A DNA stretch of 64,000 nt from Phycisphaerae bacterium. Lineage in GTDB: Bacteria > Planctomycetota > Phycisphaerae > UBA1845 > UTPLA1. The notes under the pieces were generated by a model. It did not search any database and was not told where the DNA came from. It saw only the letters and a list, made by a program, of their open reading frames with translations. The stretch's first letter is position 1. Each line of letters starts with the position of its first letter. Below, one piece after another: positions 1,258-7,870 of this stretch. Made by a program: the position numbers and the translations under genes. Location: NCBI GenBank assembly GCA_023150615.1, contig JAKLKO010000004.1, positions 1 to 64,000 on the forward strand. The letters are read 5' to 3'.

Positions 1258-2136
1258 TCAGTAGGTCAGTAGGAGCCGATCCGCCACGACTTCGCTTTCC
1301 AGCGTTTGCCCGCCCATCTGTAGGCGACGCAGCATCGACCGTCCGCAGTTCACGAGGATTTCGCGATCAAAAAGCCCGTCGGGGATGGGTAGCTTGCACT
1401 CGTGCGTACCCGACCGTTTGGTACCGTCGATGCTCAGCGCCACGTACACGCCGCGTGCCTTGCACTCCCCGATGACCGTCAGCAACTGGCGCAGCCGGAA
1501 GCGCTGGGCTCCGTAGAGGATGGCCTGACTGTGCGTGTACGGCGGGTCGCAGTAGATCAGGTCGCCAGGTCTCACCAGCGCCATCGCCTCCCGGTAATCC
1601 ATGCGGCGGAATTCGGCTCCTTGGGTCCGCCGATACCACTCATCAACCCGTTCGGCGAAAGCTTCCGGAGGGACTGGGTTATGTGGACCGCAGGGCGTGG
1701 ACATGTACCCGTCCGCCTGTCGGAATCGGACGACCCCCGCATAGCAGGACCGGCACAGGAAGAGCAGGTCCGCTCCGTTGGGTTTCCGGTTGTATGAGGC
1801 CTTGATGCGCTCGTACTCGGCGACCTTCTCGCCGCTCATCAGCCGGTTGTACCGCTCCCTGTACCAGTGCTTGAGCGTGCCGGGGTCACGATGAAGCGTC
1901 TGCCAGATTTCAATGAGCGGAGCGAACGTATCTGAGCCAACCGCCCGCTTCGGCTGAAGCGTGGCGAGTACGGCGGCACTGCCCAAAAACGGCTCGTAGT
2001 ACGTGCCGTAATCCGGGGGGAAGTACGAGACGATTTCGTGCGCCATACGCTGCTTGTTGCCGATCCACTTCAGCAGCCCGGTCGTGAAAGGCGCGACCTC
2101 GACACTCCGTCCGTCGCCGAATAGCAGCGTTTGCAT
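1258..2136 (-). CDS. D12-class DNA adenine N6-methyltransferase (type II R-M)
   Basis: 292 residues, typical for the Dam/DpnII-type alpha class. The AdoMet motif X region KWIGNKQR is at 23-30, motif I YEPFLGSAAV is near 47, and the catalytic motif IV DLIYCDPPY ends near residue 200, with a target-recognition segment between, which is the alpha order. It should methylate adenine within the site cut by the nuclease encoded from 2477. The ATG at 2136 was chosen because AGGA lies 7 bases upstream. In-frame starts at 2193 (ATG) and 2217 (TTG) also exist, but they would put the palindrome at 2194-2208 against or inside the gene. It is divergent from the XRE/nuclease pair. The recognition site cannot be read from sequence. 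Confidence 0.93.
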   Translation of the reverse strand: MQTLLFGDGRSVEVAPFTTGLLKWIGNKQRMAHEIVSYFPPDYGTYYEPFLGSAAVLATLQPKRAVGSDTFAPLIEIWQTLHRDPGTLKHWYRERYNRLMSGEKVAEYERIKASYNRKPNGADLLFLCRSCYAGVVRFRQADGYMSTPCGPHNPVPPEAFAERVDEWYRRTQGAEFRRMDYREAMALVRPGDLIYCDPPYTHSQAILYGAQRFRLRQLLTVIGECKARGVYVALSIDGTKRSGTHECKLPIPDGLFDREILVNCGRSMLRRLQMGGQTLESEVVADRLLLTY

Positions 2137-2193
2137 GTCAGCATCCTGTACCAGCGCTCGCTCCTCAGCAAGGAAGCGACCAAGCCGGACCAT

Positions 2194-2208
2194 ATCCCAA
2201 TTTGGGAT
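2194..2208. promoter_or_regulatory. Palindromic operator candidate (C-box-like)
   Basis: A perfect 7-bp inverted repeat with a single central base, ATCCCAATTTGGGAT, lies in the divergent gap between the methylase start (2136) and the XRE start (2238). Control proteins of type II restriction systems commonly bind dyads in this place and regulate both directions. Its position and its contrast with the GC-rich surroundings make it the best candidate operator for the neighbouring XRE protein. The sequence does not match the classic GACT..AGTC C-box. Confidence 0.55.
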
Positions 2209-2237
2209 TCGTGTCAAGAGCGCCTACGCTGACCGCC

Positions 2238-2480
2238 ATGGCGCGTCAGACTCAGGGTGGCGCACGGCAGCGCTTTCTTGCGCTGCTCCGCCGGGTGCGG
2301 ATGGACGCAGGCCTCCGGCAGGCCGACTTGGCCCGCAAGCTCCGGCAGCCGCAGTCGTTTGTGAGCAAGTACGAGTCCGGCGAGCGACGAATCGACGTCC
2401 TCGAACTTCGGGAGATTTGCAGGGTGTTGGGCGTATCGCTCACCGAATTCGTACGCCGCATGGAGAACGACTCGGATTGA
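2238..2480 (+). CDS. XRE-family HTH regulator, likely R-M controller protein
   Basis: 80 residues, the size usual for restriction-modification C proteins. A Cro/C1-type helix-turn-helix fills most of the chain (about 12-66), with the typical core LRQADLARKLRQPQSFVSKY and then GERRIDVLELREIC. The ATG at 2238 follows the palindrome by 29 bp. The gene overlaps the nuclease gene by four bases (TTGA), so translational coupling is likely. Expected role from the family: binds the upstream dyad and delays nuclease expression until the methylase has protected the genome. A generic XRE regulator cannot be excluded. Confidence 0.88.
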   Translation: MARQTQGGARQRFLALLRRVRMDAGLRQADLARKLRQPQSFVSKYESGERRIDVLELREICRVLGVSLTEFVRRMENDSD

Positions 2481-3340
2481 AACCGGACCCGCGCTTCCTG
2501 AACCAGCCGAAGCATTTCTGGGCCAACGTGCGCTCGATCAGCCAGCACGTCGGTTACACTGCACGCGGGACGGGGCAGATTCGCGTTCCAGACTTGGGCA
2601 CGATCGTCAAGGCGCTCGGCGAACTCGAACTCCGCGTGGGCCATGTTGCCGACGAAGTGGGGGCGCCAACGACGCTCGGCGGGTGCCTTGTCGCGTATTT
2701 TGCGTACCGAGCGGACTTGCTGAACAAGTTCATCGAGCCGCGGTTGATGAACGCCGAACAGGCCGCGAAGGCCTTCGCCCGCGTTCAGAAGCAGACCAGA
2801 TCAAAGCTGCCCATCCCGATGAACAAGCAGAAGGGCGACAAGAAAAAGCCCGCGTATCTCACGGCCGTGGTGAACATGCTGATCGACGCCAGCATTGGCG
2901 GCCTGCCCTGCGATTACGACCCGCGCGAGCTGACGACCTTCACGCACATGGGGGCGCCGCTTCGCACGCTGGCACGTCGGATCGACGGTGCGTTTCCTTC
3001 CGCGGTGAATCCGATCGCGGTCTGGGAGATCAAGGAGTACTACCACACGACCACCTTCGGAAGCCGGGTCGCGGACGGCGTCTACGAAACGCTGCTGGAC
3101 GGGATGGAACTTGAGGAGCTGCGGCGATCCGAGAAAGTCGATTGCAGGCACTACCTCATGATCGACGCCCATTATACGTGGTGGGACTGCGGTCGGTCCT
3201 ACCTTTGCCGCATCGTGGATATGTTGCATATGGGCTACGTTGACGAAGTCCTTGTCGGCACCGAGATCCTGCATCGTCTGCCTGCACTGGCGAAAGAATG
3301 GGCGGCGTTGTATCGCGCTCGCGAGAAACCGCGCGATTGA
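2477..3340 (+). CDS. Type II restriction endonuclease, PD-(D/E)xK type
   Basis: About 287 residues. A putative nuclease core is visible: Asp near residue 170, then a hydrophobic beta-strand leading to WEIK (Glu184, Lys186), followed by a Tyr/His-rich helix. This fits the D...(E)xK metal site of restriction enzymes. I chose the TTG at 2477 because it overlaps the XRE stop by four bases; the frame stays open far upstream, but that part lies under the XRE and methylase genes. A GTG at 2528 is an alternative. Placement with a C protein and a divergent methylase strongly supports a restriction role. Specificity is unknown. Confidence 0.8.
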   Translation: MKPDPRFLNQPKHFWANVRSISQHVGYTARGTGQIRVPDLGTIVKALGELELRVGHVADEVGAPTTLGGCLVAYFAYRADLLNKFIEPRLMNAEQAAKAFARVQKQTRSKLPIPMNKQKGDKKKPAYLTAVVNMLIDASIGGLPCDYDPRELTTFTHMGAPLRTLARRIDGAFPSAVNPIAVWEIKEYYHTTTFGSRVADGVYETLLDGMELEELRRSEKVDCRHYLMIDAHYTWWDCGRSYLCRIVDMLHMGYVDEVLVGTEILHRLPALAKEWAALYRAREKPRD

Positions 3341-3363: not shown

Positions 3364-3880
3364 CTTGCTATACGCCGCCCCGCCGCCGACCTGGGTCCAG
3401 GCCCCGTCGGCATCCATCGTGGCCTGCACGGCCGCGTACTGCCAGCGGCGGTGAGCTGCCGGTCTTCGACGTGATCATCGCGAACGCGGCCGTGGCGATC
3501 CCGCCGCCTCCGCCGCCGATGCGCGCGACCGTCCACGCGATCTCGGCGTCCTGGCGCTCGCCCGGCGGCCGGATGCGTTGCAGGTAGTCGAGCATCAGCA
3601 AGGCAGCGCCGAAGTCATCGGCCGTTGCGGCGATGTTGCCCAGGTCGAACGGCGGCGCGACGAACGCCAGCCGCTCGGCCACGGATTCGAGCGTTGCAAG
3701 CCCGCGGTCGATACGGTCGGCGTGCTCGGCGCCGAGCCTGCGCATGGCGATTGCGTCGAGCGGAACCCCCGACAGCCGGGCAAGCTGGCGGTCCAGCAGC
3801 ACCGCCGCGGACATTTCAACATTCGCAACCACGGCCCGCAGCGCCGGCAGCGCGTCAAGCGCCCCGGTCCATCGTCGCAA
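3364..3880 (-). pseudogene. Decayed DnaB/RepA-like helicase core, copy B
   Basis: The minus-strand reading contains NVEMSAAVLLDRQLARLSG and, 70 residues on, AALLMLDYLQRI. These match motif H1a (SLEMS) and the Walker B segment (DYLQ) of the RecA-like core of DnaB and RepA-type helicases. The P-loop that should come just before is absent, because homology stops at about 3880. After about 3560 the reading decays into Gly-rich sequence and changes frame (AAVQATMDADGAWTQVGG in another frame). A 130-base block is shared with the patch at 7505-7630. It is therefore a non-functional fragment, probably from an element that carried its own replication helicase. Confidence 0.65.
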
Positions 3881-3953
3881 CCGCGGCGCTGCGCGCCGCG
3901 GCGCGCGGCCCCGTCACGTCACTGCTTGCCTAGGTCGCTGCGACCGCGATTCC

Positions 3954-4622
3954 GTGCGGGAGAACGCCGACGCTCGCATCGCACGCGCGGTCGCCGGGGA
4001 TGCCCGCGCGCTCGAGGAACTTCTCGCCGAAACTGCGCCCCGTCTTCGGCCCTGCATCGCCAACCGCGTCCCCAGCGCCCTTCAATCCCTGATCGACGCC
4101 GATGACATCGTGCAGGACGCGCAACTCGAAGTCATCCGCCGCATCCGCGGCTTCGAGTCGCGCGGCCGCGATTCCTTCCGCGGCTGGGTCGCCACCATCG
4201 CGCTCAATCGGCTGCGCAGCATGATCAACGCACACCGCGCATCCAAGCGCGGCGGCGGCCTCTGCCATTCCTGCATCGACCAGCGCGATGCCGCAGGTAT
4301 CACCGGATCGGCGCTCGTCACCGCGGCCGGCCCGGACGAGACGCCCGACCAGATCCTTGCGCAGCGGGAGACTGTGGCGGCCGTCACCGACGCGCTGCGG
4401 GCCCTCCCGGCGCACTATCGCGAGGCAATCCGGCTCGTTCAGTTGAAAGGCTGTTCGGTCAAACGCGTCGCGGATCAGATGGGGCGAACCGAACGTGCCA
4501 TCCACGGGCTGATTCGCCGAGGCCTGGCGCTTCTACGCCGGCACCTCGCCGACGAGCGCAGCCGGCTGAAAGCCTGCCACGCAACGGTGACACGTAACGA
4601 TTCCGTTATCGCATGCACTTGA
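3954..4622 (+). CDS. ECF-type RNA polymerase sigma factor
   Basis: 222 residues from a GTG. Region 2 is seen around 30-100 (LIDADDIVQDAQLEVIRRI, then FRGWVATIALNRLRSMI, the helix contacting core and -10 DNA). Region 4 is around 150-205 (ALRALPAHYREAIRLVQ, then the helix-turn-helix CSVKRVADQMGRTERAIHGL). This matches the planctomycete ECF groups that lack an obvious adjacent anti-sigma gene, and none is seen here. The GTG was chosen because no in-frame ATG fits and upstream sequence belongs to the decayed copy B. No Shine-Dalgarno site is evident, so the start is uncertain. It may control genes in or near the island. Confidence 0.88.
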   Translation: MRENADARIARAVAGDARALEELLAETAPRLRPCIANRVPSALQSLIDADDIVQDAQLEVIRRIRGFESRGRDSFRGWVATIALNRLRSMINAHRASKRGGGLCHSCIDQRDAAGITGSALVTAAGPDETPDQILAQRETVAAVTDALRALPAHYREAIRLVQLKGCSVKRVADQMGRTERAIHGLIRRGLALLRRHLADERSRLKACHATVTRNDSVIACT

Positions 4623-5618: not shown

Positions 5619-6572
5619 ATGAGAACACGCGAGCCGAGTTTGTTTGCTGAGCAGGCGCCATCACGGTCGGCGCGCTCCGTTGAAGCGACGCGCATTCCGG
5701 AGCCCCGGCGCTACGAAGGCCCCGCCACGCGTCACTTGCTAAATCTCGGCGATGCGCGGGCGTTGGACTGGGTCGCGGACGGATCCACGCACCTCATCGT
5801 CACGTCGCCGCCCTATTTCAACCTCAAGAAGTACAACGACCATGCAGCCCAGCTCGGTGACATGCACGACTACGACGCGTTCCATGACGAGCTAGACAGG
5901 GTGTGGCGCCACTGCTTTCGCGTGCTCGTGCCCGGAGGGCGATTGGTCTGCAACGTCGGCGACGTGTGCGTAGCTCGCCGTGCCAATCGTGGTAGGCACC
6001 TTGTTCTCCCATTGCACGCGGACATAGCGGTACGGACGCGGCGCATCGGCTTCGACTACCTGACGCCAATTCTGTGGCACAAGATCGCAAACGCGCAATT
6101 CGAAGCTAGCGGAAACGGCGCCGGGTTCCTCGGGAAGCCGTACGAACCAAACGCCATCATTAAGAACGACGTTGAGTACATCCTGATGCTGCGCAAACCC
6201 GGGCAGTATCGCAGGCCGAGCAACGAGCAGCGCGCCACGTCGCGGTTGACGAAGGAAGAGCAGGCGCGGTGGTTTCGTCCGATCTGGAGCGACATCACGG
6301 GTGCCGCGACCCGCGAGCATCCTGCGCCGTTTCCGGTCGAGCTGGCGTATCGACTGGTTCGCATGTTCTCGTTCACTGGGGACACAGTTCTCGACCCCTT
6401 CGCCGGAACCGGCACAACCACTGTCGCCGCGATCCAGTGTGACCGCAACAGCATCGCCAACGAGATCGACTGGGAGTATGTCGGTCTCGCCGAGAAGCGC
6501 ATCCGCGCTGAGATCGCCCAAGGACGCGTGCTCGGTGAGACTCCGACCCTTACCACCCGACACTCCAGGTGA
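5619..6572 (+). CDS. DNA methyltransferase, beta class (type II R-M)
   Basis: 317 residues. Catalytic motif IV TSPPYFNLKKY (62-72) comes before the AdoMet motif I DPFAGTGTT (about 258-266), with a target-recognition region between (WHKIANAQFE, then GFLGKPYEPNAIIKNDVEY). This is the beta-class order. The SPPY form is usual for N4-cytosine enzymes but also occurs in N6-adenine enzymes, so the modified base is undecided. The first 35 residues are a poorly conserved extension, and the real start could be slightly downstream. It is convergent with the nuclease gene, with only 14 bases between the stops, which suggests a compact restriction-modification pair. Confidence 0.92.
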   Translation: MRTREPSLFAEQAPSRSARSVEATRIPEPRRYEGPATRHLLNLGDARALDWVADGSTHLIVTSPPYFNLKKYNDHAAQLGDMHDYDAFHDELDRVWRHCFRVLVPGGRLVCNVGDVCVARRANRGRHLVLPLHADIAVRTRRIGFDYLTPILWHKIANAQFEASGNGAGFLGKPYEPNAIIKNDVEYILMLRKPGQYRRPSNEQRATSRLTKEEQARWFRPIWSDITGAATREHPAPFPVELAYRLVRMFSFTGDTVLDPFAGTGTTTVAAIQCDRNSIANEIDWEYVGLAEKRIRAEIAQGRVLGETPTLTTRHSR

Positions 6573-6586
6573 CTTGCCGGCGCAGC

Positions 6587-7408
6587 TCAATCGCGCCGAA
6601 TGCCGAGCCGGTCCACGAGCAGACCGACGGCGACAGCAGCCTGTTCGTGGGATTGCGAGGCGAAGCACACCGCGTCGATGTACGGCGAGGTGAGGCGATT
6701 CTGAACGTTAACGTGCTCGGCCGTGAACGGGTAGTAGACGACGGCCGCGAACTTGCCTCGCGAGAAAACCGCTTTGAACTTCGCTGCCTTGTTGATTATC
6801 TCGTCGGAGCGCTTGTGGATATCGCGCCGCGCTTCGATGCGTTTGACATCGACCCCGACCTCGATTGGTCCCGTTTCGGGCGCTGCCGCGTCAAGCTCGA
6901 ACGACTCGCCGCCGACCTCGAATCGGCGCTTGCGAAAGGTCAATCGTGAGAGCGCATTGAGCGATTCCAGGACCGCGCGTTCCCAGCGTCCCTTTCTCGC
7001 CCGGATCTCCTTGTCCACGAAGAAGTACCGGTCGAGTTCACTGAGGGCCGGCACCGCAATCTCCTGCGGAAGGAATGATTTGAGGTAGCCGGCGATCGCG
7101 GCGGCTTTAGCTTCGGTTAGCCGCGGGTTATACGTGTCGATCCCTCGAATGTCGAGGTCGCGCTCGATTGCTCGGCCGGCGATGTTGCAGCATGCAAGCA
7201 ACGCCTTGAGGATGCCCGGCTGTGCCTGAATGGCGGCTGCAAGATCCAAGGCCGTCATCGCCGAGAAGTTGATGACCTCGACCTCGCGTCGCTCGATGAA
7301 TGGTTCAAACGCTTGAAGCAGCGCGGCGCGGACGGCCTCCTGGCGCGCAGCAGCATCCGCCTCCACCCACTCCAAGTAATCTGCGTGCGTGTCGTATCCC
7401 TCGGGCAT
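6587..7408 (-). CDS. Putative type II restriction endonuclease, PD-(D/E)xK type
   Basis: 273 residues from the ATG at 7408, which has AGGAG six bases upstream; a longer frame from 7474 lacks this. A plausible nuclease core is FELD (Asp173), then GVDVKRIE (Asp187-x-Lys189), with an acidic/basic helix RSDEIINKAAKFK and a hydrophobic strand AAVVYYP after it. This is the D...DxK spacing of many type II enzymes. No named enzyme family is recognised. The function is inferred from the core and from the tail-to-tail pairing with the methyltransferase at 5619. Confidence 0.72.
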   Translation of the reverse strand: MPEGYDTHADYLEWVEADAAARQEAVRAALLQAFEPFIERREVEVINFSAMTALDLAAAIQAQPGILKALLACCNIAGRAIERDLDIRGIDTYNPRLTEAKAAAIAGYLKSFLPQEIAVPALSELDRYFFVDKEIRARKGRWERAVLESLNALSRLTFRKRRFEVGGESFELDAAAPETGPIEVGVDVKRIEARRDIHKRSDEIINKAAKFKAVFSRGKFAAVVYYPFTAEHVNVQNRLTSPYIDAVCFASQSHEQAAVAVGLLVDRLGIRRD

Positions 7409-7440
7409 CCGCGTCTCCTGCGTGAAACACGACCAGTGTA

Positions 7441-7870
7441 ATTGGCGCCACGAAGATCGCCAGCTCGTCACCAACCACCAGCGTGCTTGCCCCGTGCTCG
7501 CCCGGCGGCCGGATGCGTTGGAGGTAGTCCAGCATCAGTAAGGCGGCGCCGAAGTCATCGGCCGTTGCGGCGAACGCCAGCCGCTCGGCCACGGATTCGA
7601 GCGTTGCAAGCCCGCGGTCGATGCGGTCGGCGTGCTCGGCGCAGGTGTCGTACTTGCCGGTGCAGCAGTCGCCGCCGAACCAGCTCAGCACGAAGCGGGC
7701 CATGTTGACCAGCTCGGGCTGGATTCGTTTCGAGCCGTCGAACTAGTAGTAGTCCGTGCCGCGCCGCACGTCGACGCCGCCGTAGCTGTCGAGCATCTCG
7801 GGCAGGCCGTAGATGTACGGTTTGAAGTCGTGAAGCGTCACCTGACGCGGGGATGGATAGTGGGCCGTGT
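7441..7870 (-). pseudogene. Mosaic mobile-element remnant, copy C
   Basis: On the minus strand this joins two fragments also found separately in copies A and B. From the right come PYIYGLPEMLDSYGGVDVRRG and MARFVLSWFGG (as in A), with an in-frame TAG at GTDYY*FDGS. The reading then passes through the shared GCTCGGCG junction into the helicase piece RIDRGLATLESVAERLAF ... AALLMLDYLQRI (as in B). Relative to B, 30 bases are deleted in frame (10 residues after ERLAF). The A-type and B-type pieces were therefore neighbours in the parent element. No function remains. Confidence 0.65.

Follow-up and report, generated by a model that had tools for sequence, protein, structure and literature searches.

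A predicted BclI-family restriction-modification locus in a Phycisphaerae bacterium with a controller and operator unlike those of the prototype

Introduction

Which restriction-modification (R-M) family does a methylase-controller-nuclease locus of a planctomycete belong to, and how would its small controller act on the genes around it? The locus (positions 1258-3340) lies in the first 64,000 nucleotides of contig JAKLKO010000004.1 (assembly GCA_023150615.1, Phycisphaerae bacterium), hereafter the window, and consists of a methylase gene M (minus strand) and of a controller gene C and a nuclease gene R (both plus strand), all three intact. The original prediction described it as a complete C-protein-controlled type II unit with an unusual operator, a nuclease of a family that could not be named, and a specificity that may be new. 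Our sequence comparisons suggest a complete type II R-M system of the known BclI kind, whose controller and operator are unlike the prototype's.

Results and Discussion

Gene inventory and starts

The features of the locus are listed in Table 1. The three intact genes and their Pfam and PADLOC matches bear out the description as a complete unit. The M reading frame reaches TTG 2217 (ORF 1258-2217, minus strand) and contains ATG 2193, which falls within a promoter -10 element; for this reason ATG 2136 (MQTLLFG...) is the most likely start. C is co-directional with R and directly 5' of it. R matched two Pfam domains (DUF7690, E 9.6e-25; DUF7687, E 2.2e-82) and a PADLOC type II restriction enzyme model (REase_II PDLC03423, E 5.9e-61). 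Its proposed start, a TTG overlapping the C stop codon, was upheld: TTG 2477 shares an alignment column with the ATG, GTG and TTG starts of relatives, a GGAGAA lies upstream, and R of locus L004 likewise begins at a TTG overlapping the C stop.

Table 1. Features of the R-M locus (coordinates in the window)
Feature	Position	Strand	Support
M, D12/Dam-family N6-adenine DNA methyltransferase	1258..2136	-	PF02086 2e-25; PADLOC MTase_II 5.9e-65; 52% identity to pBcl1 methylase
Methylase promoter P_M: TTGACA (2217-2212), 17-bp spacer, TATGGT (2194-2189)	2189..2217	-	
Operator dyad ATCCCAATTTGGGAT, perfect, centre 2201, fills P_M spacer	2194..2208	.	footprint kept in 54 relatives
Putative controller/nuclease promoter P_C: -35 TTGGGA (2202-2207), 17 bp, -10 TACGCT (2225-2230)	2202..2230	+	
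C, 80-aa XRE/HTH_3 controller	2238..2480	+	PF01381 2.7e-14; phmmer 3f6w 8.2e-13, C.BclI 2b5a 1e-7
GGAGAA, ribosome-binding site of R	2462..2467	+	9 nt upstream of TTG 2477; sequence and aligned starts
R, BclI-family PD-(D/E)XK restriction endonuclease, TTG start overlapping C stop	2477..3340	+	DUF7690 + DUF7687
Catalytic core D170...E184-I-K186 (DGAFPSAVNPIAVWEIK)	2984..3034	+	D 73/74, E 74/74, K 74/74 in relatives

Just 3' of the R-M unit, an ORF at 3633-4622 (plus strand) has an ECF-type sigma factor as its C-terminal part, and its true start is probably further in. Additional genes were observed downstream. An N6_N4 DNA methylase (5619-6572, plus strand; PF01555, 6.5e-40) is convergent with a 295-aa ORF (6587-7474, minus strand), which contains a possible PD-(D/E)XK stretch (ELDAAAPETGPIEVGVDVKR) and had zero Pfam or PADLOC matches. 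These two genes are a candidate for a second, undescribed R-M pair. The pair occurred in 2 of 61 genomes, the other copy being 79% identical and containing one internal TGA. A shorter relative of the 295-aa ORF (59-63% identity, two overlapping matches, L114 and L115) was found at about 7199-7712 of contig C15 in the same genome and is possibly a broken paralogue.

Nuclease family and relation to the BclI system

A scan of bacterial genomes gave 111 relatives of R, 80 of which were kept. The WEIK sequence, noted earlier as the nuclease core, proved to be part of D170-X13-E184-x-K186, in agreement with the D-Xn-(D/E)-x-K pattern of PD-(D/E)XK nucleases. In a comparison of the AlphaFold2 model of R (pLDDT 95.9) with known structures, BstEII was on top (Z 10.6, 159 aligned residues, rmsd 3.3), followed by SgrAI (Z 8.2) and then by BsoBI and PspGI. 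Foldseek with this model returned nothing below E 0.001, and a sequence search of PDB with R gave zero matches; it is the second structural aligner, together with the motif, that points to a PD-(D/E)XK restriction-enzyme fold.

The family of R can be named after all. R is homologous end to end to the gene adjacent to C.BclI on plasmid pBcl1 of [Bacillus] caldolyticus NEB414 (39% identity, 95% coverage, E 6e-62, tblastn). pBcl1 is the plasmid of the BclI producer, and C.BclI has been crystallised. The C gene of pBcl1 matched PDB 2b5a (C.BclI) over residues 1-77 (E 1.2e-46), its full length, and we therefore took this locus as the BclI system. It resembles the window in gene order (M minus, C plus, R plus), in the nuclease core WEIKEYYxTTTFGSR and in an R gene that begins near the C stop; M, divergent to C-R, is homologous to the pBcl1 methylase (D12/Dam class). 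In global alignments, identities between the window and pBcl1 were 52% for M, 43% for R and 26% for C. The recognition helix is HRTYISEVE in C.BclI but PQSFVSKYE in the window controller, and pBcl1 has a classic two-site C-box-like sequence (CACTtaaAGTCtGTaGACTtatAGCC) whereas the window has a single dyad. Judged from these alignments, R and M belong with the BclI system and C does not.

Putative R-M loci on Corynebacterium glutamicum pGA2 and Bacillus methanolicus pBM69 share the three-gene arrangement and the families, but their nucleases are only about 38-39% identical to R (tblastn). In addition, pBM69 has a C.BclI-like helix, and pGA2 has ATTCTAATTTCGAAT plus a divergent C, unlike the window.

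Recognition specificity

BclI cuts TGATCA. Since both enzymes are homologous to BclI's, TGATCA is the leading prediction for M and R and a likelier one than the new specificity considered originally; we regard it as probable that both act on this site. A drift of M and R to another sequence within the BclI lineage, e.g., another GATC-centred or related palindrome, would be in line with the identity of R to the BclI nuclease of only 39-43%, with the weakly conserved N-terminal half of R and with the lack of TGATCA avoidance in the genome sample. It is nevertheless quite unlikely, as M and R diverged together yet retain long identical blocks, namely RFRxxDGYMSTPxGPHNPxxPE in M and WEIKEYYxTTTFGSRxADGVYETxLDG and WWxxGxSYLCRIxDMLHMGxVDEV in R.

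TGATCA occurred 1090 times in the whole genome. In a 464-kb genome sample, 124 sites were observed versus 145.6 expected (ratio 0.85), i.e., no special avoidance, and these counts are neither for nor against TGATCA specificity. CAGCTG was strongly depleted in the same sample (16 observed versus 147.5 expected) and was also low, relative to a reversed control, across other genomes of the taxonomic family. A search with PF09225 for a PvuII nuclease found none, the control for PF09225 being uninformative. Site avoidance was dropped as a read-out of specificity because TGATCA was not avoided, low CAGCTG counts extended to the taxonomic family and a PvuII nuclease was not detected.

Putative operator dyad and promoters

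A perfect 15-bp dyad was found between the divergent genes exactly where it had been predicted. The controller was detectable at 66 of 83 loci, and 54 of these 66, from about 12 phyla, had the dyad in the same place as in the window, with at most 4 mismatches in 14 positions and in most cases 271-279 bp 5' of R. Rarity of the palindrome was rejected as evidence by itself: 1.02 matches with up to 3 mismatches are expected by chance per 64 kb. The perfection of the match is notable, but conservation was taken as the real evidence.

P_M is the only sigma70-like site in 2050-2500 (10 of 12 matches, 0.0 expected in the promoter scan), and both of its hexamers were kept in the 54 relatives. The logo of these 54 loci, aligned on the dyad, shows TTGACA-N17-TATNNT (P_M) around the dyad on the minus strand and, on the plus strand, TTGGGA-N17-TANNNT leading from the right arm. 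In this alignment C begins at around +36 to +40, and in the window the dyad centre lies 37 bp upstream of the C start (2201 versus 2238). From the conserved TTGGGA and TANNNT columns we infer P_C of the window, which is weak (TTGGGA/TACGCT) and was missed by the promoter scanner. Its -35 coincides with the right arm of the dyad. The right arm was more conserved than the left, which its double use as dyad arm and -35 would explain. Transcription from P_C is predicted to start at about the C ATG, giving a leaderless C-R mRNA; such mRNAs occur in other C systems (PMC4824078).

No second dyad was seen at 50 of 62 loci, and one was present in the other 12. In six loci (L031, L034, L044, L055, L062 and L076), the second dyad lay 27-32 bp further downstream, on the side of the C gene, and the switch may exist there in a two-site form. 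R and M were also observed at loci where the controller was undetected (L017, L023, L030, L037, L041, L043, L060, L063, L064, L069, L074 and L075). The dyad was missing in most of these, M was 3' of R in L037 and L064, and the 12 loci may be natural controller-free versions.

Covariation of controller and operator

When dyad base +5 was compared with 80 columns of C, K44, P38 and R50 ranked first, all of which are located in or beside the recognition helix (QPQSFVSKYESGER in the window). Three main kinds of arms were distinguished: ATCC..GGAT paired with the helix PQSFVSKYE..GER (P38/K44), ATTC..GAAT with SQSFVSKYE..GEL (S38/L50), and ATGC..GCAT with PQSFVSRYE (R44), the pairing agreeing at 57 of 58 loci. 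Sites were identified with an arm-agnostic finder, in which palindromy at +/-5 entered the score and protein columns were unused. On the nuclease tree, the arm and helix states changed several times; the number of independent contrasts was small, with 1 and 2 when only well-supported branches are counted and 4 and 3 when the best tree is used. The covariation thus appears as a strong pattern, short of formal proof.

The predicted link between the XRE protein and the dyad is thereby supported by both the phylogenetic footprint and the covariation, and C very probably binds the dyad, because arm position +/-5 tracks recognition-helix residues 44, 38 and 50. That the dyad is a chance palindrome or the site of another regulator is highly improbable: one dyad within 3 mismatches is expected per 64 kb, but its position is kept in 54 loci and its arms covary with recognition-helix residues. 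RptR was considered and rejected, as it binds TAGCTA and is tied to type I systems (PMC12255303).

Regulatory model

The whole model, to which we assign a probability of roughly 0.75, is a horizontally acquired type IIP BclI-family module acting on TGATCA, in which a dyad-bound C represses both promoters. The homology of the genes, the conserved promoters and dyad and the helix-operator covariation were observed; binding, the sign of regulation and specificity are inferred from them. C, as a small XRE dimer, would occupy the one 15-bp dyad that lies between M and C. When the module enters a new host, the strong, unblocked P_M would fire, such that the methylase protects the genome first, while the weak P_C slowly yields the leaderless controller-nuclease mRNA, from which R would be translated via the stop-start overlap. 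Accumulating C would then fill the P_M spacer and shut P_M, and bound C would also cover the P_C -35, which would cap C and R. Repression of the M promoter by C is highly likely; autorepression, which is read from geometry, is likely to a lesser degree.

PvuII-type systems use a two-site C-box with activation followed by repression (PMC6237814, PMC4824078). C could similarly activate P_C from the dyad in the manner of lambda cI, with the positive feedback known from classic C systems. C proteins such as that of EcoRV act as repressors of the methylase and, from the distal site, as activators of C-R (PMC6237814), the weak P_C could need help, and 12 of the 62 relatives contain two dyads. Such activation is unlikely given the geometry, as the predicted start lies about 36 bp 3' of the dyad centre and the right arm is the -35 itself, and the second site is absent at most loci. 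The activator position of lambda cI is at about -42, and the dyad lies further in than this. We prefer repression of both promoters.

Comparison with other controller classes

The operator differs from the classic C-box, as was originally proposed. The C.PvuII/C.BclI type consists of two dimer sites resembling GACT-N3-AGTC, separated by a GT-centred spacer, whereas the window has a single ATCCCAA-T-TTGGGAT. A list of ten C-protein operator motifs was reportedly given by Sorokin et al. in 2009. The C.Csp231I/EcoO109I class (motif 8) also departs from the classic C-box but has paired CTAAG-N5-CTTAG sites and a 98-aa protein (PMC3115060, PMC4824078), unlike the single ATCCC-N5-GGGAT and 80-aa protein of the window. 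C.Kpn2I, too, is an XRE protein that falls outside the main families of C proteins and represses the methylase promoter (PMC6237814); however, it acts as a roadblock bound where its own ORF begins, whereas the site in the window is located about 37 bp upstream, within both promoters, rather than inside the C ORF or where that ORF begins. Novelty is limited to the contrast with the BclI prototype and the described C classes, and the operator class may already be published.

Distribution and implications

Among close relatives, the nuclease family was detected in 4 of 81 genomes searched (including the window's own), and it spans about 12 phyla; of 392 genomes from the phylum, 2 contained the strict operator-plus-promoter pattern, one being the window's. 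Relatives of R were present in four plasmid records (tblastn), and no homologue was found in phage records. The sporadic occurrence and the spread over about 12 phyla suggest a pattern of horizontal transfer.

These data assign the Pfam unknowns DUF7687 and DUF7690 to BclI restriction nucleases, and TGATCA is predicted for a large family in about 12 phyla. We propose only tentatively, at somewhat less than even odds, that the controllers form a widespread undescribed class with one dimer, one 15-bp operator, overlapping divergent promoters, a repression-only timer and a code of residues 38, 44 and 50 versus operator position +/-5 that swaps specificity without cross-talk. If the single-operator, repression-only logic is true, this timing circuit would be simpler than the textbook C-box switch. 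Together, the loci provide naturally occurring controller-operator pairs whose recognition helices and operators change in step; if the code is read correctly, these systems would exchange operator specificity without cross-talk, while the BclI prototype keeps the classic activator-repressor switch.
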